64,000 nt of DNA, from contig NZ_FPEG01000002.1 of NCBI RefSeq assembly GCF_900117395.1, forward strand, positions 372,001-436,000. Direction: 5' to 3'. Position numbers and translations under genes: made by a program. The notes under the pieces were generated by a model that ran no database searches, was not told the DNA's origin, and saw nothing but the letters and a program-made list of their open reading frames with translations. Source of the stretch: Agrococcus sp. Marseille-P2731. GTDB taxonomy: Bacteria > Actinomycetota > Actinomycetes > Actinomycetales > Microbacteriaceae. Positions 7,675-59,451 of this stretch are shown here, piece after piece (the stretch's first letter is position 1; each line of letters begins with the position of its first letter).

Positions 7675-8487
7675 GTGCTCGACACAGCGATCGACCTGCT
7701 CAGGGGACGCCGCATCGCGGTGCTCACCGGTGCTGGCATCTCGACCGACTCCGGGATCCCCGACTACCGAGGCGAGGGTGCACCGCGCCGCACGCCGATG
7801 GTGTTCGACACCTTCCGCTCGAGCGAGGATGCCCGCAGGCGCTACTGGGCCGGCAGCCACCTGGGGTGGCGGCGGTTCGTCTCCGTGCACCCGAACGACG
7901 GCCATCGGGCGCTCGCGCGACTCGAGCAGGCGGGGCTGGTGACGGGCATCGCGACGCAGAACGTCGACGACCTGCACGAGCGTGCCGGGTCGCGAGAGGT
8001 CGTGCACGTGCACGGTCAGATGCACACGGTTTCCTGCCTCGACTGCGGCCGCACCTACGACCGGCAGCGCATCGCCGAGGACATCGAGCGGCGGAACCCC
8101 TGGATCGTGGTGCCGGAGCAGGTGCGGCTGCAGCCGGACGGCGACGTCGAGATCGACGCCTCGCAGCGCTTCGAGGTGCCCGTGTGCCCCGTGTGCGGCG
8201 GCATGCTGAAGCCCGACGTGGTGTTCTTCGGCGAGCTCGTGCCGCCGAAGGTGTTCGCCGCTGCGCGCGACGTGATCGCCGCCGGCGAGGTCGTGCTCGT
8301 CGCGGGCACCTCGCTGGTCGTGAACTCGGGCACGCGGCTGCTGGAGGTGGCGCGTCGCGAGGATGTGCCGATCGTCATCGTGAACCGCGGTGAGACGAAG
8401 TGGGATGCGCGCTCTGCCGTGCGCGTCGAGGGTGGCACGAGCGAGACCCTGACGGCGATCGCGGACGCGCTCGTCGCGCCCTTCTGA
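7675..8487 (+). CDS. Sir2-family NAD-dependent protein deacylase
   Basis: A 270-residue sirtuin that removes acyl groups from lysines using NAD+. The motifs are GAGIS at 19-23 (NAD binding), TQNVDDLH at 94-101 and the catalytic His113 in HVHGQM. A structural zinc site is formed by Cys121, Cys124, Cys171 and Cys174. A roughly 45-residue insertion between the Cys pairs (DRQRIAEDIE to RFEVPV) is typical of this actinobacterial subgroup. The GTG start is supported by the TAGGCT box 7 nt upstream. The gene is monocistronic and followed by a repeat-rich intergenic region. Substrates are unknown. Confidence 0.93.
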   Translation: MLDTAIDLLRGRRIAVLTGAGISTDSGIPDYRGEGAPRRTPMVFDTFRSSEDARRRYWAGSHLGWRRFVSVHPNDGHRALARLEQAGLVTGIATQNVDDLHERAGSREVVHVHGQMHTVSCLDCGRTYDRQRIAEDIERRNPWIVVPEQVRLQPDGDVEIDASQRFEVPVCPVCGGMLKPDVVFFGELVPPKVFAAARDVIAAGEVVLVAGTSLVVNSGTRLLEVARREDVPIVIVNRGETKWDARSAVRVEGGTSETLTAIADALVAPF

Positions 8488-8492
8488 CCCCC

Positions 8493-8580
8493 GCGCGCCT
8501 CCGTCGGTCGAGGAGCGCGCCTCCGTCGGTCGAGGAGCGCGCCTCCGTTAGTCGAGGAGCGCGCCTCCGTTGGTCGAGGA
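8493..8580. repeat. Four tandem copies of a 22-bp unit
   Basis: Four back-to-back copies of a 22-bp unit (GCGCGCCTCCGTCGGTCGAG plus GA) occupy 8493-8514, 8515-8536, 8537-8558 and 8559-8580. Copies 1 and 2 are identical. Copy 3 has TTAG and copy 4 TTGG in place of TCGG. The array lies between the convergent sirtuin and glycosyltransferase genes. It appears to be an amplified left arm of the palindromic element that follows at 8572-8634. Confidence 0.9.
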
Positions 8581-8584
8581 GTGC

Positions 8585-8634
8585 GCGGCCCCAGGCCGCT
8601 CGCGTCACGAGACCCGGGCTCCGGCCTCGTGACG
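8585..8634. repeat. Paired inverted repeats next to the 22-bp array (possible bidirectional terminator)
   Basis: Two hairpins lie side by side: GCGGCC/GGCCGC at 8585-8599 with a 3-nt loop, and CGTCACGAG/CTCGTGACG at 8603-8634 with a 14-nt loop. They sit between convergent genes, so they could terminate transcription. With the GGTCGAGGAG sequence before them they resemble a decayed interspersed palindromic element. Confidence 0.6.
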
Positions 8635-8666
8635 GCAGCAGCGCTCCGCGCGGCGGCCTCCTCGAC

Positions 8667-9746
8667 CTACGGGTGGGCGCGCCGCGACGCCGACGCCGCG
8701 ACCTCCGCGAGGAACGCGCCGAGCCGCTCCGCCGAGTCGCGCCAGCTGAAGCGCGCAGCCTGCTGCCGCGAGGCGCGCGACCTGGCCGCCCACTCCCCCT
8801 CGAGCGTGCGCACGGCGCGCGCCAGCGCATCCGCATCGCCGACCTCGAAGAGCATCGCCGCGTCACCGCCCACCTCGCGGAAGATCGGGGTGTCGGCGAC
8901 CACCACCGGCACGCCCAGCGCCATGGCCTCGAGCAGCGGGATGCCGAAGCCCTCCTCGCGCGACGCGTGCACGAGCGCGGTCGCGCTGCGCAGCAGCTCG
9001 GCGTACTCCTCGTCGCTGACGCCGTCGTGGAAGACGAGGGATGCGCCCGCGGCGAGCTGCGTCAGCCGGTCGCGCGTCGCCGCGTCGACGCGGCTGCAGA
9101 GGTGCAGCTCGTGCTCCGGCAGCAGGCGCGCGGCGCGCACGAGCGTCTCGACGTCCTTGTAGGGCATGAAGGAGCCCATGTAGACCAGGCGCCCGGTCGG
9201 CGGCCGGTCGTGCTCGACGGGCGCTCCGAAGGGCTCGGCGGCGTTGGGCACGATCGCGACCGGGCGGCGCGTGAGGCGGTGCTGAGCGATGAGCCTGCGC
9301 GTGCTCTCGCTGATGGTGACGACGCCGTCGGCGCCGTTCAGCAGCATCCGCTGCGGCGCGAAGGAGAGGTGGTAGAGCCGCCAGAGGAGCCGCACCGGTG
9401 CCGGCAGGTCGTGCGGCGGCATCGGGTGGCGGTAGTAGATGAGGTCGTGCACGGTGGTGACGAGCGGCCAGGCGCGGCCGATCGAGCCGATCGTCTGCAT
9501 CGGCGAGTAGGCGATGTCGGCCGGCACGCGGCGCAGCCGCCAGGCCGTCAGGGGCTCGAGCGGGCCGGTCGGCGAGGGGCCGAGCACGTGCGGGAGCTCC
9601 GGCAGCATCGACAGCTGCCGCTCGTCGCTCACGAGCATCGTGACCTCGTGGTCGCGCGCGAGGCCCGCGACGAGCTCTGCCGAGAAGCGCGAGATGCCGT
9701 CGTGCCGAGGGAACCGCACGTAGCGGCAGTCGAAGAGGATGCGCAC
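8667..9746 (-). CDS. Glycosyltransferase, GT4 family (group 1)
   Basis: A 359-residue retaining glycosyltransferase with two Rossmann domains (GT-B fold). The donor-site signature E-x7-E lies in REEGFGIPLLEAMALGVPVV, and a nucleotide-binding loop VYMGSFMPYKD is in the carboxy domain. There is no membrane helix, so it is probably cytosolic or membrane-peripheral. The GTG at 9744-9746 follows the hydrolase stop after 2 bp, so it is the second gene of a two-gene unit. Acceptor and sugar donor cannot be inferred; no other polysaccharide genes lie nearby. Confidence 0.88.
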   Translation of the reverse strand: MRILFDCRYVRFPRHDGISRFSAELVAGLARDHEVTMLVSDERQLSMLPELPHVLGPSPTGPLEPLTAWRLRRVPADIAYSPMQTIGSIGRAWPLVTTVHDLIYYRHPMPPHDLPAPVRLLWRLYHLSFAPQRMLLNGADGVVTISESTRRLIAQHRLTRRPVAIVPNAAEPFGAPVEHDRPPTGRLVYMGSFMPYKDVETLVRAARLLPEHELHLCSRVDAATRDRLTQLAAGASLVFHDGVSDEEYAELLRSATALVHASREEGFGIPLLEAMALGVPVVVADTPIFREVGGDAAMLFEVGDADALARAVRTLEGEWAARSRASRQQAARFSWRDSAERLGAFLAEVAASASRRAHP

Positions 9747-9748
9747 GG

Positions 9749-10744
9749 CTAGCGCTCGTCCGCTTCAGGCGCAGCGGCATCGGCGAGCTCGGCGACGAAG
9801 CGGCGGATGATGGCGGCCGCCTGCCGCGGCTGCTCGTAGTGCACGAGGTGGCCGACGCCCGTGAGCACCGCCAGGCGCGCGTCGGGGAAGAGCGAGCGGA
9901 GCCGATGCTGGTGCGCGAGCGGCGTGATGTCGTCGCGGTCGGCGGCGATCAGCTGCACGGGCTGCGCGATGCGCGAGGCGACCTCGCCGACCGTGTGGCG
10001 GATCGATGCCTCGAAGGCCTCGAGCACGGCTCGGCGCGAGGCGTAGCGCGAGAAGTAGCGGTCGTGCTGGTCGTGGATCCAGCGCTTGAGCGCCGGGTCG
10101 CGGGTCTTCGCCATGAACGCGCTCATGCCGCGCACGATCGGCGGAGCGCCGAGCACGGCGAGGCCGGCGGCCTCCGGCAGCGCGGCTGCGGCGCGGTAGT
10201 AGCCGAGGGCCAGCAGCGAGCCGAGCCTGTTGGCGCCGGCGAGCGCGGGCGTGGCGATCGGGTTGACGAGCACGATGGCAGCGCCGCCGAGGCCTGGCGC
10301 CCCATCCGGCCCCCGGGCCGCGGCGTGCGCCACCACGATCGAGCCGAACGAGTGCCCGAGCACCGTCAGCCGCCGGCCGGGGCGCTCCGGCGCCACCGCG
10401 CGCACGAATGCGCGCAACCACGACGCGTAGGCGTCGATCGTGGCGTGCTCCAGCGCATCCGAGGCACCGAAGCCCGGCAGGTCGGGCGCGATGATGCGGA
10501 ATCCCGGCAGGTGTGCCGCGACCGGCTCGAGGCCGTGGTGGTCGCCGCGGAAGCCGTGCACGAAGACGACCGCGGGCGCATCCTCGGGGCCGTACTCGAA
10601 GACCGACGTGCGCACGCCGTCGACGTCGAGCTCGCGCTCGCGCCTCGGCAGCGCCCCGAGCAGCGCCCGGTACGGCGACTCGATGGGCTCGCGCGCGCCA
10701 GCGCGCCTGCGTCCGCGCGCACCGCCTCCATGATCCTCAGCCAC
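9749..10744 (-). CDS. Alpha/beta-fold hydrolase
   Basis: A 331-residue alpha/beta hydrolase. It has the oxyanion HG motif (VFVHGFRGD, about residues 61-68), the nucleophile elbow GHSFG with Ser132, a catalytic Asp in AADRDDITP and a catalytic His in GVGHLVHYEQP. A helical cap domain lies between residues 150 and 240. The amino-terminal 20 residues are basic and of low complexity. The GTG start at 10742-10744 is supported by a TAGGCT box ending 6 nt before it. It is the first gene of a pair with the glycosyltransferase. The substrate is unknown. Confidence 0.85.
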   Translation of the reverse strand: MAEDHGGGARGRRRAGAREPIESPYRALLGALPRRERELDVDGVRTSVFEYGPEDAPAVVFVHGFRGDHHGLEPVAAHLPGFRIIAPDLPGFGASDALEHATIDAYASWLRAFVRAVAPERPGRRLTVLGHSFGSIVVAHAAARGPDGAPGLGGAAIVLVNPIATPALAGANRLGSLLALGYYRAAAALPEAAGLAVLGAPPIVRGMSAFMAKTRDPALKRWIHDQHDRYFSRYASRRAVLEAFEASIRHTVGEVASRIAQPVQLIAADRDDITPLAHQHRLRSLFPDARLAVLTGVGHLVHYEQPRQAAAIIRRFVAELADAAAPEADER

Positions 10745-52393: not shown

Positions 52394-54112
52394 TCACCCC
52401 GCGATGCGGGCGATGGCCTCGTCGACGGCGACGCTCGCACCCACGGCGACGAGCTGCTCCAGGGTGCCGGAGCGGTGCGCGAGCACGCGGGTCTCCATCT
52501 TCATCGCGTCGAGGACCGCGACCTCCTCCCCCTCGGTGACGGCCGCATCCGCCGCCACCAGCCAGCGCACGAGGGAGCCGGGCACGGGCGCGACGAGCGC
52601 GCGCTCGTCCGGCGCGGGCGCGCTGGCGGCCGCCTGCGGGACCGCCCCTGCCGCGATGCCGAGCAGCGCATCCGGAAGCCCCAGCACCACGCGCCGCCCG
52701 TCGACCTCGATCGGCACGCGTCGCAGCCCGGAGGGCGCATGCGCGGCCGGCCTGGACTGCAGCTCGAGCCGAGGCATGAGCGTCGCCTCGATCCACTGGG
52801 TCGAGACGGCGAAGCCCGCCGTCGAGAACGCGGGCTCCTCGAGCAGCGCCTCGGCGAAGGGAGCGACGGTCGCGATCCCGGTGACCTCGAGCTCGCCCAG
52901 CGCCCTGCGCATGCGCACCAGGGCGGCGTCGCGGTCGGCGGCGTGCACGATGAGCTTGGCGGCGAGCGAGTCGAAGGCCGCCTCCACCGTGTCACCGGCC
53001 TCCACGCCCGCATCCCAGCGGATGCCAGGGCCGGCGGGCACCCGGAGCGTCTCGACGCGCCCGGGGCTCGGCAGGAACCCGCGGCCCGGGTCCTCGGCGT
53101 TCAGGCGCAGCTCGATGGCATGGCCCACCGGAGTCGGCGTCTCGGTGAAGGAGGGCCCGAGGCCCTCGGCGATGCGCAGCTGCTCGCGCACGAGGTCGAC
53201 GCCCGTGACGGCCTCGGTGACCGGATGCTCGACCTGCAGCCGCGTGTTGACCTCCAGGAACGAGATGGTGCCGTCCGCGCCCAGCAGGAACTCGACCGTG
53301 CCGGCACCGCGGTAGTCGACCGCCGCGCAGATGTCGCGCGCGGCGGCGTGGATGCGCGCCCGCTGCTCGTCGGTGAGGCCGGGGGCGGGGGCCTCCTCGA
53401 CGAGCTTCTGGCTGCGGCGCTGCAGCGAGCAGTCCCGATCGCCGACCACCACCACGCGTCCGCGCCCGTCACCGAGCACCTGGGCCTCGACGTGCCGCGG
53501 ATGCTCGAGGTAGCGCTCGATGAAGCACTCCCCGCGCCCGAACGCCGCGACGGCCTCGCGCGTGGCCGAGTCGAACGCATCCGCGACCTCGTCGATCGTG
53601 CGCGCCACCTTGAGCCCTCGCCCGCCGCCGCCGAACGCGGCCTTCACGACGACGGGCAGGCCGTGCTCGCGCGCGAAGGCGACGGCCTCGGAGGCGTCGG
53701 CCAGCGGCCGGTCGGTGCCGGGCGCGAGCGGTGCACCGGTCTCGAGCGCGATCGTGCGCGCCGTCACCTTGTCGCCGAGCGCCTCGATCGTCTCCGGGCT
53801 CGGCCCGATCCAGGTGAGGCCAGCCTCCTCGACGGCGCGCGCGAAGGCTGCGCTCTCCGAGAGGAAGCCGTAGCCGGGGTGCACGGCGTCGGCGCCTGCG
53901 GTGCGCGCGGCGTCGAGCAGCGACTCGATGCTCAAGTAGGTCTCGGCAGCGGTCGTGCCGCCGAGCGCCACCGCCTCGTCGGCGTGGCGCACGTGCATGG
54001 CGTCGACATCCTGGTCGGCGTAGACGGCGACCGAGCGGTAGCCGGCCTCTGCGCATGCTCGTGCGACGCGGACGGCGATCTCGCCGCGGTTGGCGATGAG
54101 GATCTTCTGCAC
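52394..54112 (-). CDS. Biotin carboxylase fused to biotin carboxyl carrier domain
   Basis: A 572-residue two-domain protein. The biotin carboxylase part (about 1-450) has ILIANRGEIAVRV, the ATP-grasp glycine loop KAAFGGGGRGLKV, a bicarbonate/biotin site EVNTRLQVEHPVTE and DRDCSLQRRSQKLVEEAP. The last 75 residues are a biotinyl domain with AMKM and the target Lys at 538. No carboxyltransferase of the acyl-CoA type lies nearby. The gene instead follows the PxpB-PxpC fusion, whose two domains are homologous to the carboxyltransferase half of urea carboxylase. The GTG at 54110-54112 has AGGAG 6 nt upstream. A plain acyl-CoA carboxylase role is possible but less supported by context. Confidence 0.9.
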   Translation of the reverse strand: MQKILIANRGEIAVRVARACAEAGYRSVAVYADQDVDAMHVRHADEAVALGGTTAAETYLSIESLLDAARTAGADAVHPGYGFLSESAAFARAVEEAGLTWIGPSPETIEALGDKVTARTIALETGAPLAPGTDRPLADASEAVAFAREHGLPVVVKAAFGGGGRGLKVARTIDEVADAFDSATREAVAAFGRGECFIERYLEHPRHVEAQVLGDGRGRVVVVGDRDCSLQRRSQKLVEEAPAPGLTDEQRARIHAAARDICAAVDYRGAGTVEFLLGADGTISFLEVNTRLQVEHPVTEAVTGVDLVREQLRIAEGLGPSFTETPTPVGHAIELRLNAEDPGRGFLPSPGRVETLRVPAGPGIRWDAGVEAGDTVEAAFDSLAAKLIVHAADRDAALVRMRRALGELEVTGIATVAPFAEALLEEPAFSTAGFAVSTQWIEATLMPRLELQSRPAAHAPSGLRRVPIEVDGRRVVLGLPDALLGIAAGAVPQAAASAPAPDERALVAPVPGSLVRWLVAADAAVTEGEEVAVLDAMKMETRVLAHRSGTLEQLVAVGASVAVDEAIARIAG

Positions 54113-54137
54113 GATCGCTCCTGTCAGTCGGTCTGTG

Positions 54138-55775
54138 TCAGACGATGGGCGTGCCGGCGGACTGCTCGGCGGGGTGCTCGCAGGCGGGGTGCTCGGCGAT
54201 GCGGAAGCGGATGCGGGCGCCCGGCGGGAGCTGGCCCGCGAGGTCGAGGTCGCGGTCGACGACCGCACCGATGATCGGGTAGCCGCCCGTGAGCGGGTGG
54301 TCGGGCAGGAAGAGCACGGGCTGGCCGTCCGGCGGCACCTGGATCGCGCCGGTGACCGCTCCCTCGCTCTCGAGTTCGCCCAGCCGCGCACGTGCGAGCG
54401 GCGTCGCCCCGTGCAGCCGCACGCCGACGCGATCCGAGCGCGGCGTGACCTCCCACTCCTGCTCGACGAGGGTGCGCAGCGCCGCCGGCGTGAACCAGTC
54501 GTCCCTCGGCCCCAGCACGATCGAGAGCTCGACGGTCTCGCCTGCGATCGGCATCGGGATGCGAGGTGCGCGGATGTGCTCGACGGCGGCGATGCCCCTG
54601 GCTGGACCGTGGAGCGGCAGCACGTCGCCTGCGCTGAGCGGCTCGGGGCCCAGCTGCGCGAGCGTGTCGGTCGCGAGGCTGCCGAGCACCGCATCGAGCG
54701 CCACGCCGCCGCGGATCGCGAGCAGCATCCGCAGCCCGTCCTGCGCGGCGCCGATGCGCAGCTCGTCGCCGTCCTCGACGGCGATCGCCCGACCGGGCTC
54801 GACGGCGATCTGGGTGCCCGGCCCTTCGGCATCCGTCGCCTCGTGGGAAGCCCGCCGCGCTGGGTGCAGCGAGGCGTCAACGAGCGCTCCGGCGAGCGCG
54901 ATCACCGCAGCCCCGCGGAAGCGGAGCATCGCTCCCCCACCTGCCAGCTCGAGCGCACCTTCGCCGGGGGCGTTGCCGACCGCCCGGTTCGCCTCCCTCA
55001 GCGCAGTTCGGTCGGCGGTGCCGGATGCCGCGACGCCCTGTGCGGCCATCCCCGGCCTGCCCAGATCCTGCACCAGCAGCTGCAGCCCGGGCCGCAGGAC
55101 CTCGACGGCGTGGGGCGCGTCGACGACTGCCCGCTCGACCGCCGGGTGCTCCAGCAGCTCGCGCTCGATGCGCTCGAACCGCACCGTCGTGCCTGGGCTC
55201 AGCAGCGCAGCGGGCTGCCGGTCCAGGTCCCACATCGCGAGATCCGTGCGACCGATGAGTTGCCAGCCACCGGGGCTCTGCTTCGGGTACACGCCCGAGA
55301 ACCGCCCGGCGAGCGCGACCGAGCCGGCGGGGATGCGCGTGCGGGGCGATGCGCGGCGCGGCACGTCGAACAGCGTGTCGTCGCCCACGAGATAGCCGAA
55401 GCCGGGCGCGAAGCCGGTGAAGGCGACCGTCCACGTCGCGGCCTGGTGTCGGGCGACGAGCTCTTCGATCCCGACGTCGAGCAGCGCTGCGACCTCTGCC
55501 AGGTCCTCGCCGTCGTAGCGGACCGGGATCGCGACAGCGTCGGTGCTCTGCGCGCGCGGCGCGGCAGGCTCGACGGCCAGCAGGCGCTCGGCGAGCGCGG
55601 CGGCGGAGACCAGGGTCGGATCGAACCGCACGAGGATGGTGCGGGCTGCGGGCACGAGCTCGGTGACCCCGGGCAGCGCCGCCTCGGCCAGCGCGGGCAG
55701 CAGCCGCATGGACTCGTCGAGATCGGCCGCCTCGAGCAGCAGCGCGGTGTCCGCCGCGGTGAGCACCCTCGTCAT
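54138..55775 (-). CDS. PxpB-PxpC fusion (KipI/KipA; allophanate-hydrolase subunit 1 and 2 domains)
   Basis: A 545-residue fusion. Residues 1 to about 205 are the PxpB/KipI (AHS1) domain with [32 protein letters not shown] and [12 protein letters not shown]. Residues about 220-530 are the PxpC/KipA (AHS2) domain with [31 protein letters not shown], and [20 protein letters not shown]. In other bacteria separate PxpB and PxpC form, with PxpA, an ATP-dependent 5-oxoprolinase; the same domains make the carboxyltransferase of urea carboxylase. The ATG overlaps the upstream stop. The biotin carboxylase gene follows after 25 bp. Confidence 0.9.
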
Positions 55776-56602
55776 GCGGCGTACGCGGCGTCGGGCACGT
55801 CGGTCACGAACATGGAGCCGGGCGCGTGCGTCACGGCGAACGGCGGCCGGGAGGCGACGATCGCGGCCTGCGGGGTGACGCCGCAGGCCCAGAAGACGGG
55901 CACGTCACCATCGAGGAGGGCAGGCGCGTCCCCGAACTCCGGGCTGCCGAGGTCGGCGATGCCGAGCGAGGCGGGGTCTCCGATGTGCACCGGCGCGCCG
56001 TGCGCGGCGGGGAACCTGCCCGAGATCGTCACCGCATCCGCCACCATCGACGCCGGGATCGGGCGCATCGAGACGACCATGTCGCCATGCAGCCTGCCGG
56101 CCGGCTCGCAGGCCGTGCTGGTGCGGTACATCGGCACGTTGCGACCGAGCTCCCGGTGGCGGATGGGGATGCCCGCGTCGACGAGACCGGCCTCGAACGT
56201 GAACGAGCACCCGATCAGGAACGACACCAGGTCGGGATGCTCCTCCCAGGCCGCCGAGGCATCCGTCGTCTCCTCCGCGAGCTCGCCGTCGCGCCAGATG
56301 CGGTAGCGGGGGATGTCGGTGCGGATGTCGGAGCCGGGCGCGAGCCGCGACTCGACGCGGCCCGCCTCGAGCACCTCGAGCACCGGGCACGGCTTCGGGT
56401 TGCGCTGCGCGAACAGCAGGGTCTCGAACGCCCAGTCGGCCGGCACGGCGATCAGGTTCGCCTGCACGAGGCCGTGCGCGATCCCGCTCGTCGCCTCAGA
56501 GGCTCCCAGCCGGTAGCGCGCTCGAGCATCTCGCCCCGCCGTGGTCTGCGACGCGGATGCGCGAGTGGCGGATGCGCGGGCAGCGGACGCGCGGGTGGTC
56601 AC
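55772..56602 (-). CDS. DUF1445 / D-glutamate cyclase-family protein (putative hydro-lyase)
   Basis: A 276-residue protein. After a roughly 27-residue Ala/Arg/Ser leader, the family core begins at [26 protein letters not shown]. It continues with [26 protein letters not shown], and [34 protein letters not shown]. The family, known as YcsI in Bacillus, is also the amino part of the mammalian mitochondrial D-glutamate cyclase, which links it to 5-oxoproline chemistry. The leader is encoded by three 15-bp repeats, and the GTG start (56600-56602) is uncertain. It is coupled to pxpA by GTGA. Confidence 0.85.
56553..56597. repeat. Three tandem 15-bp repeats in the DUF1445 gene start
   Basis: Three 15-bp copies (56553-56567, 56568-56582, 56583-56597; consensus GCGGATGCGCGGGTG on the + strand) encode the pentapeptide (A/T)RASA three times at residues 3-17 of the DUF1445 protein. 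The unit is in frame, so copy-number change would lengthen or shorten the leader without frameshift. Confidence 0.85.
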
Positions 56603-57369
56603 GAGCGCTCCCCCGCGAACGGCGCGATCGTCACCCCGGCGGCCTCGAGGGCCTCGCGCGTGGCGCTCGCCATCGCGATCGCACCGGCGCTGTCGCCGTG
56701 CACGCAGATCGACTCGGCCCGCACCGCGACGTCGGTGCCGTCGATCGCCTCGACGACGCCCTCCTGCGCGAGCCGCACCATCCGCGCGGCCGCGAGTGCC
56801 GGGTCGTGGAGCACCGAGCCCGGTTCGGTGCGGGAGACGAGCAGCCCCGTCGGCGTGTAGGCGCGATCGGCGAACGCCTCCGCGGCGGTGGCGAGCCCGA
56901 CGCGCTCAGCGATGTCGAGCACGACACCCCCCGCGAGCCCCAGCAGCACGAGCGACGGGTCCACGGCCCGGATCGCCGCGACGACGTCCTTCGCCTGCCG
57001 CTCGTCGCGGGCGATCGTGTTGTACAGCGCGCCGTGCGGCTTCACGTAGACCGCACGGCCGCCAGCTGCACCTGCGAGCGCCTGCAGGGCACCGAGCTGG
57101 TACTCGACATGGGCCTGGAGCGTCGCGGAGTCGATCTCCACCTCCACGCGACCGAAGTTCGGGTAGTCGCGGTAGCCGGGGTGGGCGCCGATGGCGACGC
57201 CCCGCTCCACCGCCGCTCGCAGCGTCGCCGCGATGCCCTCGGGGCTCCCGGCGTGGAAGCCGCAGGAGACGTTCGCGCTCGTGACGATGCGCAGCATCGC
57301 CTCGTCGTCGCCGACGATCCGCTCCGGCACGTTCTCGCCCAGGTCGGAGTTCAGGTCGATCACGGTCAT
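56599..57369 (-). CDS. pxpA: PxpA, 5-oxoprolinase subunit A (LamB/YcsF family)
   Basis: A 256-residue LamB/YcsF TIM-barrel protein. Hallmarks are [11 protein letters not shown] at the start, [27 protein letters not shown], and [11 protein letters not shown]. The carboxy end has [12 protein letters not shown], with His and Asp residues as in metal-dependent deacetylase-like barrels. PxpA opens or activates 5-oxoproline together with PxpBC. It overlaps both neighbours by 4 nt. Its presence is the strongest evidence that the operon handles 5-oxoproline or a related lactam. Confidence 0.94.
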
Positions 57370-58649
57370 GCCCCGACCCCCAGGAAGGCGAAGATCGGGC
57401 CGATCGAGTTGGCGCCCATCCAGAAGCTCAGCAGGGTCGCGATCGTGCCGATGATGAGCAGCCACCGCGGGTAGCGATAGCCGCCCAGCACGTCCTTCGA
57501 CCGGAACCAGCCGATGTACATGAAGATCGTCAGCCCGATCGGCAGGATCAGGCCGTTGAAGCCACCGACGAAGACCAGCAGTGCGGCGGGCGCCGTGCCG
57601 ATGAGCAGGTAGACGACGAGCGAGACGACGATGAAGGCGACGGTCGCGACCTGCAGCGGCCAACCACCGGCCAGCCGCTTCGAGAAGACCGACATGAAGG
57701 TCGCGGAGGTGAAGGCTGCGCCGATCACCGAGGTGATGGCCGCCGCCCAGAAGATGAAGCCGAAGATGCGCAGGCCGGCCTCGCCCAGCACGTGGCCGAA
57801 GGCCTGGGCGGCGGGGTTGGCCGCCTGGCCGGCGAGGTCGAGCGTGACGCCCGATGCCACGACGCCGAGGATGGCGAGGAAGAGCACGTAGCGCATGATG
57901 CCGGTGACGAGGATGCCCTGCATCGACGCTCGGTGCACGCCCTGCACGTGGTCGGGGCCGACGAACCCCGATTCCAGGTAGCGGTGCGCGCCTGCATAGG
58001 TGATGTAGCCGCCGACGGTGCCGCCCACGATCGTCGTGATGGTGGCGAAGCTGATCTCGTCGGGCACGATCGTCTGGCGCAGGGCCTCGCCGATGGGCGG
58101 CTGCGAGGCGATCGCCACGATGAGCGTCATGGCGATCATGCCGATGCCCAGCACCATGACGACGATGTCGACGACTGGCCCCGCCTTCTTGAACAGGAAG
58201 ATGCCGATCGCCAGGGCGCCGGTGAGCAGGCCGCCGATCTTCGGGTCGAGCCCGAGCAGGGCGTTGAGCCCCAGCCCGCCTCCGGCGATGTTGCCGATGT
58301 TGAACGCCAGGCCGCCGATGATGATGAGCACTGCGAGCACGTGCCCCGAGTAGGGCACCGCCTGGTTGGCGAGGTCGCCCGCCCGCTTGCCAGAGACGGT
58401 GATCATGCGCCAGATGTTCATCTGCACCGCGAAGTCGATGAGGATCGACACGAGGATGGCGAAGGCGAAGGCGGCGCCGAGCTGGGCGGTGAAGGTGGCG
58501 GTCTGCGTGATGAAGCCCGGCCCGATGGCCGAGGTCGCCATGAGGAAGATGGCGCCGAGGATCGGCCCCCTGCGGCTCTTGGCGAACGCCTTGGCCTTGG
58601 CCTTCGATGGCTGCTCTGCAGTGCTGGACTGCTGCGGTGCGTCGGTCAT
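57366..58649 (-). CDS. NRAMP-fold transporter lacking the metal-binding motifs (YcsG-like)
   Basis: A 427-residue membrane protein with about eleven helices and an NRAMP/LeuT-like arrangement. The first helix, which in metal transporters carries DPGN, reads AIGPGFIT (GPGF at 43-46). The sixth helix, which should carry MPH, reads [14 protein letters not shown] (213-226). Both metal-coordinating sites are thus absent. A similar gene (ycsG) sits in the Bacillus ycsF-ycsG-ycsI-kipIA cluster, so uptake of an organic substrate such as 5-oxoproline is a reasonable inference. The ATG at 58649 is chosen over ATGs at 58661 and 58667. It is the first gene of the operon. Confidence 0.85.
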
Positions 58650-58730: not shown

Positions 58731-58744
58731 CGATTGTTCAACAA
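58724..58744. promoter_or_regulatory. Candidate GntR-regulator operator (two palindromes)
   Basis: GTTGCAAC (58724-58731) is a perfect palindrome and TTGTTCAACAA (58734-58744) is a perfect 5+1+5 palindrome. Their centres are about 11.5 bp apart, near one helical turn. They cover the -35 of the catabolic operon and lie upstream of the regulator gene, a place where binding would repress the operon. Confidence 0.6.
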
Positions 58745-58782
58745 CATAGGGCGGATGTGTTTCGGCTGTGTTGCGGCGCGCA

Positions 58783-58788
58783 TACGAT
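58783..58788 (+). promoter_or_regulatory. -10 box (TACGAT) of the GntR-family gene
   Basis: TACGAT ends 6 nt before the ATG at 58795, matching the leaderless pattern and supporting this start over an upstream TTG/GTG. Confidence 0.45.
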
Positions 58789-58794
58789 CGGGGC

Positions 58795-59451
58795 ATGAGC
58801 GATCCGAGCGCGACGCTGCCGGGCACGACGCTGGCCGACGTGCTGCGCGTGCAGATCATCGATGGCGCCTTCTCACCGGGCCAGCGGCTCTCAGAGGCGG
58901 CGCTCGCCGAGCGCCTCGATGTCTCGCGCAACACGCTGCGCGAGGCGTTCCGGGTGCTCGCGCAGCTCGGGCTCGTCGAGCACGTGCCGCACCGAGGGGT
59001 CTCGGTCGCGTCGCCCAGCACCGCCGACGTCGTCGACATCTACCGCGCCCGCAGGCTGATCGAGTGCGGGGTGCTGCGCGACGCCTCAGCCCTGCACCCC
59101 GGTGTCGCGGCCATGCGCGCCGCGCTCGATCGCGCTGAGCGTGCGGAGGCCGGGGCGGACTGGCCCGCGGTGGGCAGCGCGAACATGAGCTTCCACATCG
59201 CGCTCGTCTCCCTCGCGGACAGCCCGCGCCTCGCGCGCGCGCACGATCAGCTGGCCGCCGAGCTGCGGCTGGCGTTCCTCGCCATCGACGATCCCGAGGC
59301 GCTGCACCGGCCGTTCGTCGCCAAGAACCGCGCGGTGCTCGAAGCGCTCGAAGGTCAGGGCCCCGAGGCGGCGGCCGCCGAGCTCGAGCGCTACCTGATC
59401 GACTCGGAGCGTCGCGTGCTCGGCGCGTTCTCGCGGCTGCGGCGCCACTAG
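58795..59451 (+). CDS. GntR-family transcriptional regulator (FCD/FadR type)
   Basis: A 218-residue regulator. The amino winged helix-turn-helix has LADVLRVQIIDGAFSPGQRLSEAALAERLDVSRNTLREAFRVLAQLGLVEHVPHRGV, a typical GntR domain. The carboxy part is an all-helical FCD ligand-binding domain with the expected metal-type residues around RRLIECGVLR, NMSFHIALVSLADSPR and KNRAVLEALEGQ. It is divergent from the pxp operon and most likely represses it until its substrate or an intermediate binds. No Shine-Dalgarno is visible. Confidence 0.92.
   Translation: MSDPSATLPGTTLADVLRVQIIDGAFSPGQRLSEAALAERLDVSRNTLREAFRVLAQLGLVEHVPHRGVSVASPSTADVVDIYRARRLIECGVLRDASALHPGVAAMRAALDRAERAEAGADWPAVGSANMSFHIALVSLADSPRLARAHDQLAAELRLAFLAIDDPEALHRPFVAKNRAVLEALEGQGPEAAAAELERYLIDSERRVLGAFSRLRRH

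Follow-up and report, generated by a model that had tools for sequence, protein, structure and literature searches.

Why does a gene set of the 5-oxoprolinase type end in a biotin carboxylase? The question is raised by five genes that span positions 52394-58649 on the - strand of a 64-kb stretch of Agrococcus sp. Marseille-P2731 DNA (the window, meaning the whole stretch analysed), as delimited by open reading frames (ORFs) and by Pfam and NCBIfam matches. They encode, in order, an NRAMP-like transporter, PxpA, a DUF1445 protein, a fusion of PxpB and PxpC (PxpBC), and a biotin carboxylase (BC) fused to a biotin carboxyl carrier protein (BCCP). The PxpA, PxpB and PxpC domains (PF03746, PF02682 and PF02626) all score above their Pfam cut-offs, and the BC, biotinyl carrier and carboxyltransferase domains of a biotin-dependent carboxylase are all present in this one operon. 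We lean towards the view that the operon serves the utilisation of 5-oxoproline (pyroglutamate) by a split, biotin-assisted 5-oxoprolinase.

Linkage of biotin carboxylase to PxpBC

A query alignment of five PxpBC fusions retrieved at least 585 relatives, and the best 80 from named genomes, all of them fused PxpBC proteins, were kept. Counting a BC as linked when it lies on the same strand and within 500 bp after pxpC, we found one directly downstream of pxpC in 74 of these 80, with PxpA upstream in all 74, and the full gene order of the window recurred in 32 of the 80 (again the best of at least 585). Of the six unlinked loci, L174 stops at a contig edge. With mechanically chosen start codons, the distance from the pxpC stop to the BC start was -4 in 29 of the 74 loci, -1 in 7 and more than 50 nt in 6; DUF1445 is present in 37 of the 74 operons. 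A first-pass annotation of the same DNA had suggested looking for co-occurrence of BC with pxpBC fusions across genomes, and these counts indicate that the pairing is not due to chance. Because the 80 loci are nearest relatives, the figure of 74 applies to this lineage only.

Of the 186 PxpBC rows, 139 entered a FastTree tree, in which the fused, BC-linked PxpBC proteins of Actinomycetota and Pseudomonadota form one group of 44 rows (34 of them linked; local support 99), and BC linkage changes state 8 times across the tree. This single group with its few state changes indicates an old BC linkage within a single PxpBC lineage that spans Actinomycetota and alpha-, beta- and gammaproteobacteria. 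Some Microbacteriaceae and Promicromonosporaceae appear to have lost this linkage.

Lineages and residues of the biotin carboxylase

We also built a tree from 75 of 117 extracted BC domains. The AccA3 rows of the organism's class, whose identity was presumed from best BC-BCCP matches and which include that of the genome itself, form one clade (28 rows, 100/100), and all 41 pxp-linked fused BCs in the tree fall outside it, the window BC among them. Separate BCCP and BC genes occur in the pxp operons of Bradyrhizobium, R. binae, R. leguminosarum and Levilactobacillus, and these separate pxp-linked BCs lie outside the branch that unites fused BCs and AccA3 (100/100). A single clade of all pxp-linked BCs was rejected (p-AU 3.3e-6), whereas the four separate ones as one clade are compatible either way (p-AU 0.44). 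The tree thus argues that two distinct BC lineages are linked to pxpBC. However, it is chiefly the grouping of AccA3 with the fused BCs that defeats the one-clade arrangement, so that an ancient linkage followed by later loss could account for the pattern in place of a second BC lineage.

Some of these loci have further peculiarities. Those of Bradyrhizobium (L144:4934-9580) and Rhizobium binae (L259:2472-7203) each combine a single BC gene with two separate small genes whose annotation reads carrier or acetyl-CoA carboxylase subunit. The Klebsiella quasipneumoniae plasmid locus L139 holds a second, shorter BC gene beyond an IS1 element from the operon (833-2236; 8482-10227), and this second BC groups among the pxp-linked BCs in the tree.

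The BC half of the window protein looks catalytic: K115, K157, H207, K236, E274, E287, N289, R291 and R336, which we take to correspond to catalytic residues of E. coli BC, are invariant in 5 aligned rows. Judged by Pfam, the protein has no carboxyltransferase domain, and its full-length relatives adjoin PxpBC elsewhere. It shares the BC-BCCP architecture with the AccA3-type acyl-CoA carboxylase alpha subunit and is 57% identical to the genome's own AccA3-like protein, but it lies outside the AccA3 clade and no acyl-CoA carboxyltransferase adjoins it. The genome encodes three further BCs. One is a self-contained pyruvate carboxylase, and each of the other two has one of the genome's two acyl-CoA carboxyltransferases nearby, at ~1 and ~11 kb by their matched stretches. 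A search of the 80 loci with the genome's own acyl-CoA carboxyltransferase domain, made without a positive control, gave no match. Since the AccA3 clade excludes the window BC-BCCP and the other BCs have partners, its assignment as this genome's acyl-CoA carboxylase subunit was rejected.

Operator, regulator and substrate

The pxpABC genes represent the commonest prokaryotic type of 5-oxoprolinase (PMC13274462; this and the other papers, as well as the structure entry cited below, are quoted from their accessible parts). In Corynebacterium glutamicum, growth on 5-oxoproline requires pxpTABC, and the divergently encoded GntR protein PxpR binds 5-oxo-L-proline with a dissociation constant (KD) of 726 nM and acts on 5'-agattgttcaacaatct-3' (PMC13274462). 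The window holds both elements of such a PxpR/5-oxoproline regulon, a divergent GntR/FCD gene and, between it and the NRAMP gene, the predicted operator core; the first-pass annotation mentions neither of them. The intergenic 17-mer CGATTGTTCAACAACAT is identical to the C. glutamicum PxpR site at 14 of 17 positions, and the 11-bp core TTGTTCAACAA occurs as a single copy in the window.

The same arrangement was evident among the relatives. A divergent GntR match lies within 700 bp of the next operon match in 56 of the 80 loci, and these promoters formed our promoter set. The exact core TTGTTNAACAA was found in 47 of the 56, which corresponds to 47 copies in 16,145 bp of promoter sequence versus 10 in 1,287,903 bp elsewhere. 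A looser core matched 57 of 59 regions, three plasmid loci included, with L176 and L139 left without a match. Among 100 pxpB loci sampled from the class, 18 have a GntR match and 7 of these hold the exact core, both BC-linked ones included; one further class locus holds it without a GntR match. Neither a GntR match nor the exact core was found in the Acinetobacter loci L206, L218, L221 and L257, which fits the report of a LysR regulator in that genus, from A. baumannii. In addition, a pyroglutamyl peptidase gene (pcp) is present in 4 of the 74 BC-linked operons and also in L143.

Taken together, the operator core and the pyroglutamyl peptidase linkage suggest that 5-oxoproline is the substrate, whatever the enzyme mechanism, and on these sequence features we regard the assignment as very probable. 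The first-pass annotation had proposed that a lactam such as 5-oxoproline is opened through a carboxylated intermediate; the substrate is thereby supported, and the lactam may be carboxylated and its ring opening may depend on BC. The system resembles PxpABC, PxpT and PxpR of C. glutamicum in its PxpA, PxpB and PxpC parts, its NRAMP-like transporter, its divergent GntR gene and the core TTGTTCAACAA. It differs in that pxpA, pxpB and pxpC are three genes in C. glutamicum, for which the accessible text mentions neither BC-BCCP nor DUF1445 (PMC13274462).

PxpBC and the carboxyltransferase of urea carboxylase

The single-chain model of PxpBC (predicted local distance difference test, pLDDT, 91.4) matches MSMEG_0435-0436, TTHA0988, YbgJK and urea carboxylase. 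With the Pfam domains CT_C_D and CT_A_B, these structure matches uphold the earlier statement that PxpB and PxpC are homologous to the carboxyltransferase of urea carboxylase. The NCBIfam equivalog models were not reached, either for PxpB (TIGR00370, 124.4 of 145.55 bits) or for PxpC (NF045499, 157.6 of 500 bits), and we therefore file the system as a PxpABC variant rather than as a canonical member; the domain model TIGR00724 was narrowly missed (227 of 230.2 bits).

Urea carboxylase (K. lactis 3va7/5i8i; TIGR02712) likewise combines BC, a UCT-type carboxyltransferase and BCCP, and the urea carboxylase L142 has the same residue in 31 PxpC and 12 PxpB columns that are conserved in PxpBC. It is, however, one protein, whereas the window system consists of two proteins without allophanate hydrolase, and TIGR02712 was not reached (529.1 and 169.3 of 1303.85 bits).

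PDB entry 9yx5, entitled 'Structure of the long chain acyl-CoA carboxylase complex from Mycobacterium smegmatis with MSMEG_0435-MSMEG_0436 bound', contains PxpB, PxpC and AccA3 chains in one entry, as its title and chain names indicate; the literature search brought up no paper on it. Homologues of PxpC and PxpB are thus seen there with a relative of the window BC-BCCP, although AccA3 in that complex is the general acyl-CoA subunit. We consider it probable that BC-BCCP and PxpBC function together.

Proposed mechanism

In the mechanism that we favour, the NRAMP-like protein would import 5-oxoproline, as its homologue suggests, and the GntR protein would sense it and let go of the operator, by analogy with C. 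glutamicum. The BC half, whose residues are intact, would load a carboxyl group onto the BCCP biotin with ATP and bicarbonate. BC-BCCP would bind PxpBC, a carboxyltransferase of the urea-carboxylase type, as the joint presence of the homologues in 9yx5 suggests, and PxpBC would activate the lactam by passing it the carboxyl group. PxpA would then open the activated ring, with release of CO2 and formation of glutamate, and DUF1445 probably feeds D-glutamate and 5-oxo-D-proline into the same route. For the carboxylated lactam intermediate taken by itself, we see the chances as evenly balanced.

A wider version, tentative and on balance doubtful, is that PxpBC is a carboxyltransferase in general, not a kinase, which would take carboxybiotin from any BC-BCCP, a dedicated one here and housekeeping AccA3 or AccBC elsewhere, with ring opening via the carboxylated lactam. 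The ATP dependence of 5-oxoprolinase would then be that of biotin carboxylase. Systems without a BC may draw on AccA3 or AccBC instead, an idea that 9yx5 suggests but does not prove.

Comparison with the published mum operon

The operon itself is already in print as the mum operon of Acinetobacter baumannii (mumTLUHC), described as an Mn transporter with a urea carboxylase, the system being present in 88 organisms (PMC5050338). Our reading of it as a 5-oxoproline system differs, and 5-oxoproline is nowhere mentioned in the accessible text of that paper (PMC5050338). In A. baumannii L257, NRAMP, PxpA, DUF1445, a 527-aa PxpBC and a 573-aa BC-BCCP follow one another in the order of the window, as they do in the Acinetobacter loci L206, L218 and L221. 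The letters T-L-U-H-C appear to follow this gene order, which by position would make MumL PxpA. The ORF at the place of MumH, named an allophanate hydrolase in print, has CT_C_D and CT_A_B domains only, and that at the place of MumC, named a urea carboxylase, has BC and BCCP only. The regulators differ, with the LysR protein MumR in A. baumannii and a divergent GntR protein in the window.

Deletion of mumC blocks the use of urea as sole nitrogen source and deletion of mumH does not (PMC5050338), which is a poor fit with a MumH-MumC urea carboxylase. Sensitivity to calprotectin is raised by deletion of mumH or mumC, but not of mumL or mumU (PMC5050338), and this shared phenotype fits PxpBC and BC acting together. 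Two of these results nevertheless count against a 5-oxoproline system: mumC is needed for urea use, a phenotype that our favoured reading does not explain, and mumL (PxpA by position) is dispensable for calprotectin resistance.

Other precedents are less direct. A 2011 survey of biotin carboxylases, which offered no functional data, described gene pairs homologous to both halves of the carboxyltransferase of urea carboxylase (PMC3199775), and CapAB, an ATP-dependent lactamase unrelated in sequence, needs bicarbonate (PMC8453981). The masses of the proteins of six Pseudomonas loci (PxpBC 55-57 kDa, BC-BCCP 60-62 kDa, PxpA 26-27 kDa) are only loosely compatible with the 64 and 51 kDa that PMC8453981 quotes for the chains of the classical component A of P. 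putida. Our literature search, beyond whose reach most subscription papers lay, brought up no recognised report of a biotin-dependent 5-oxoprolinase.

Alternative explanations

Several further observations weigh against a biotin-assisted enzyme. Niehaus 2017 reportedly found that PxpA, PxpB and PxpC of B. subtilis alone reconstitute activity. ATP hydrolysis or phosphorylation has been ascribed to PxpB/PxpC (PMC8453981, PMC13274462), and C. glutamicum requires only pxpTABC, BC going unmentioned in the accessible text (PMC13274462). A linked BC was seen in only 2 of the 100 class pxpB loci (3 of 101 with the window); in 10 of the 100, one flank is shorter than 4 kb. As none was seen in the other 98, BC must be borrowed or dispensable there. 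Inside the BC-linked PxpBC clade, 10 of the 44 rows have no BC, one of them (L174) owing to the contig end. The general base Lys of urea carboxylase (KlUA K1605) is Arg140 in PxpBC, an Arg that is invariant in 30 PxpBC rows, and urea carboxylase L142 departs from PxpBC in 11 PxpC and 21 PxpB columns that are conserved in PxpBC with and without a linked BC. The BC-linked group is marked by only one PxpB position (L19) and about eight PxpC positions (counted after two artefact entries had been dropped), and none of these markers was placed in the biotin pocket. Finally, 9yx5, judged by its title and chain names, speaks for binding, not for activity or for docking of the biotin arm.

Such observations would suit an ordinary ATP-phosphorylating PxpABC 5-oxoprolinase, with BC-BCCP kept in the operon for some other purpose, for example to serve another carboxyltransferase. 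The 98 class loci without a linked BC and the BC-less members of the BC-linked clade are in line with this explanation, as is the view in the literature that PxpBC phosphorylates 5-oxoproline (PMC13274462). It sits less well with the tight coupling of BC to pxpC in 74 of 80 loci, with a second BC lineage that is also pxp-linked, with the homologues bound in 9yx5 and with the match of PxpBC to urea carboxylase structures, and we consider it unlikely. That BC-BCCP and PxpBC instead form a split urea carboxylase making allophanate from urea, as the mum operon was read, would explain why deletion of mumC stops the use of urea as sole nitrogen (PMC5050338) and would agree with the homology of PxpBC to the urea carboxylase carboxyltransferase. 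Yet mumH, which judging by its position and description is that operon's sole carboxyltransferase gene, is dispensable for urea use (PMC5050338), the general base Lys is replaced by Arg in PxpBC, and the operator core and pcp linkage favour 5-oxoproline, which together make this explanation highly improbable. A plain urea amidolyase was rejected, in keeping with the first-pass annotation, which had thought a plain urea pathway unlikely: in the genome, the best score for allophanate hydrolase TIGR02713 (194.6 of 511.05 bits) stayed below the cut-off, no urease was above its cut-off, and the CT_C_D gene is the only one of its kind.

A biotin-dependent enzyme might also open another lactam or imide, such as 5-oxo-D-proline from DUF1445 or 2-pyrrolidinone or similar, with 5-oxo-L-proline as a side substrate. 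DUF1445 in 37 of the 74 BC-linked operons would agree with this, although the other half of these operons have no DUF1445 match. In Aspergillus nidulans, lamA, the neighbour of lamB, is urea-carboxylase-like. The 2-pyrrolidinone gene lamB is itself related to ycsF, that is, PxpA (PMC3412718). However, PxpR of C. glutamicum binds 5-oxo-L-proline with the KD given above and the operator core is common to both systems, so that we regard another lactam as the main substrate as decidedly unlikely. We thus continue to favour 5-oxoproline and a split, biotin-assisted 5-oxoprolinase.

Operon layout and transporter

The five genes on one strand, with 4-nt overlaps among the first four, proved to lie exactly where the first-pass annotation had placed them (Table 1). 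The overlaps at 57366-57369, 56599-56602 and 55772-55775 join the NRAMP, PxpA, DUF1445 and PxpBC genes, and the PxpBC stop is separated by 25 nt from the BC-BCCP start, which is preceded by acaggag. Domains were named by Pfam gathering scores, which holds for all Pfam domains named in this text, and by NCBIfam cut-offs. The relation of DUF1445 to D-glutamate cyclase noted earlier was borne out by a score above gathering for PF07286 (D-Glu_cyclase), and Pfam found no amidase (allophanate hydrolase) domain in the five operon proteins. The AMKM motif of BC-BCCP is presumably the biotinylation site, with K538 as the biotinyl lysine.

Table 1 Coordinates of the operon genes, key codons and regulatory elements in the window.
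Feature	Position	Strand	Details and basis
BC-BCCP (biotin carboxylase fused to biotin carboxyl carrier protein)	52394..54112	-	572 aa, GTG start; Pfam Biotin_carb_N, CPSase_L_D2, Biotin_carb_C, Biotin_lipoyl
Lys538 codon, predicted biotinyl lysine in AMKM motif	52499..52501	-	AMKME shared by all 5 pxp-linked BC-BCCPs aligned
Fused PxpB-PxpC (carboxyltransferase subdomains C/D then A/B)	54138..55775	-	545 aa; Pfam CT_C_D + CT_A_B
Arg140 codon of PxpBC, position of urea-carboxylase general base (KlUA Lys1605)	55356..55358	-	Alignments
DUF1445 / D-glutamate-cyclase-like 'putative hydro-lyase'	55772..56602	-	PF07286 (D-Glu_cyclase) 215 bits; NF003969 388.5 bits, cut-off 324
PxpA (LamB/YcsF), predicted ring-opening subunit	56599..57369	-	PF03746 302 bits; NF003814 327.5 bits, cut-off 226
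NRAMP-family transporter (YcsG/MumT/PxpT type)	57366..58649	-	PF01566 70 bits
TTGTTCAACAA, predicted PxpR-type operator core	58734..58744	.	Matches C. glutamicum PxpR site core
Divergent GntR/FCD regulator, PxpR-like	58768..59451	+	PF00392 + PF07729 above cut-off; placed like C. glutamicum pxpR

The operon is flanked by uvrB and uvrA, as it is in two Agrococcus loci, L145 and L155; the nearest row found was Agrococcus sediminis (L145), with a BC 90% identical to the window BC. In Microbacterium oryzae (L150:8001-11702), PxpA and PxpBC lie directly before uvrB and uvrA and no BC is present. Whereas the whole Agrococcus operon stands between uvrB and uvrA, M. oryzae L150 possibly lost its BC with a local rearrangement.

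The window NRAMP protein is 55-60% identical to those of L257 (Acinetobacter), L139 (Klebsiella) and L258 (Proteus), and 45% to that of L141. Canonical NRAMP metal transporters carry DPGN and MPH motifs. In these operons the NRAMP-like proteins instead read GPGF at the place of DPGN, as 5 aligned rows agree, and have no MPH motif, which fits badly with the claims of Mn import for YcsG and MumT. The role of these proteins is disputed, with 5-oxoproline uptake in C. glutamicum (PMC13274462) set against Mn import by B. subtilis YcsG (PMC10448178) and MumT (PMC5050338). In some betaproteobacteria and Photorhabdus (L143, L153, L158, L161, L167, L168, L180, L199 and L207), DUF969-DUF979 occupies the NRAMP position, and pyroglutamyl peptidase is present in some of these loci. 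DUF969-DUF979 is a candidate alternative 5-oxoproline transporter.

Implications

These operons are natural experiments, in which a PxpBC lineage with the carboxyltransferase fold of urea carboxylase has retained an adjacent biotin carboxylase. If the carboxylated-lactam route is true, a lactam would join the substrates of biotin-dependent carboxylation, and the mechanism assumed for PxpABC would change. The mum operon, assigned to urea in print, would then be re-read as a 5-oxoproline system.

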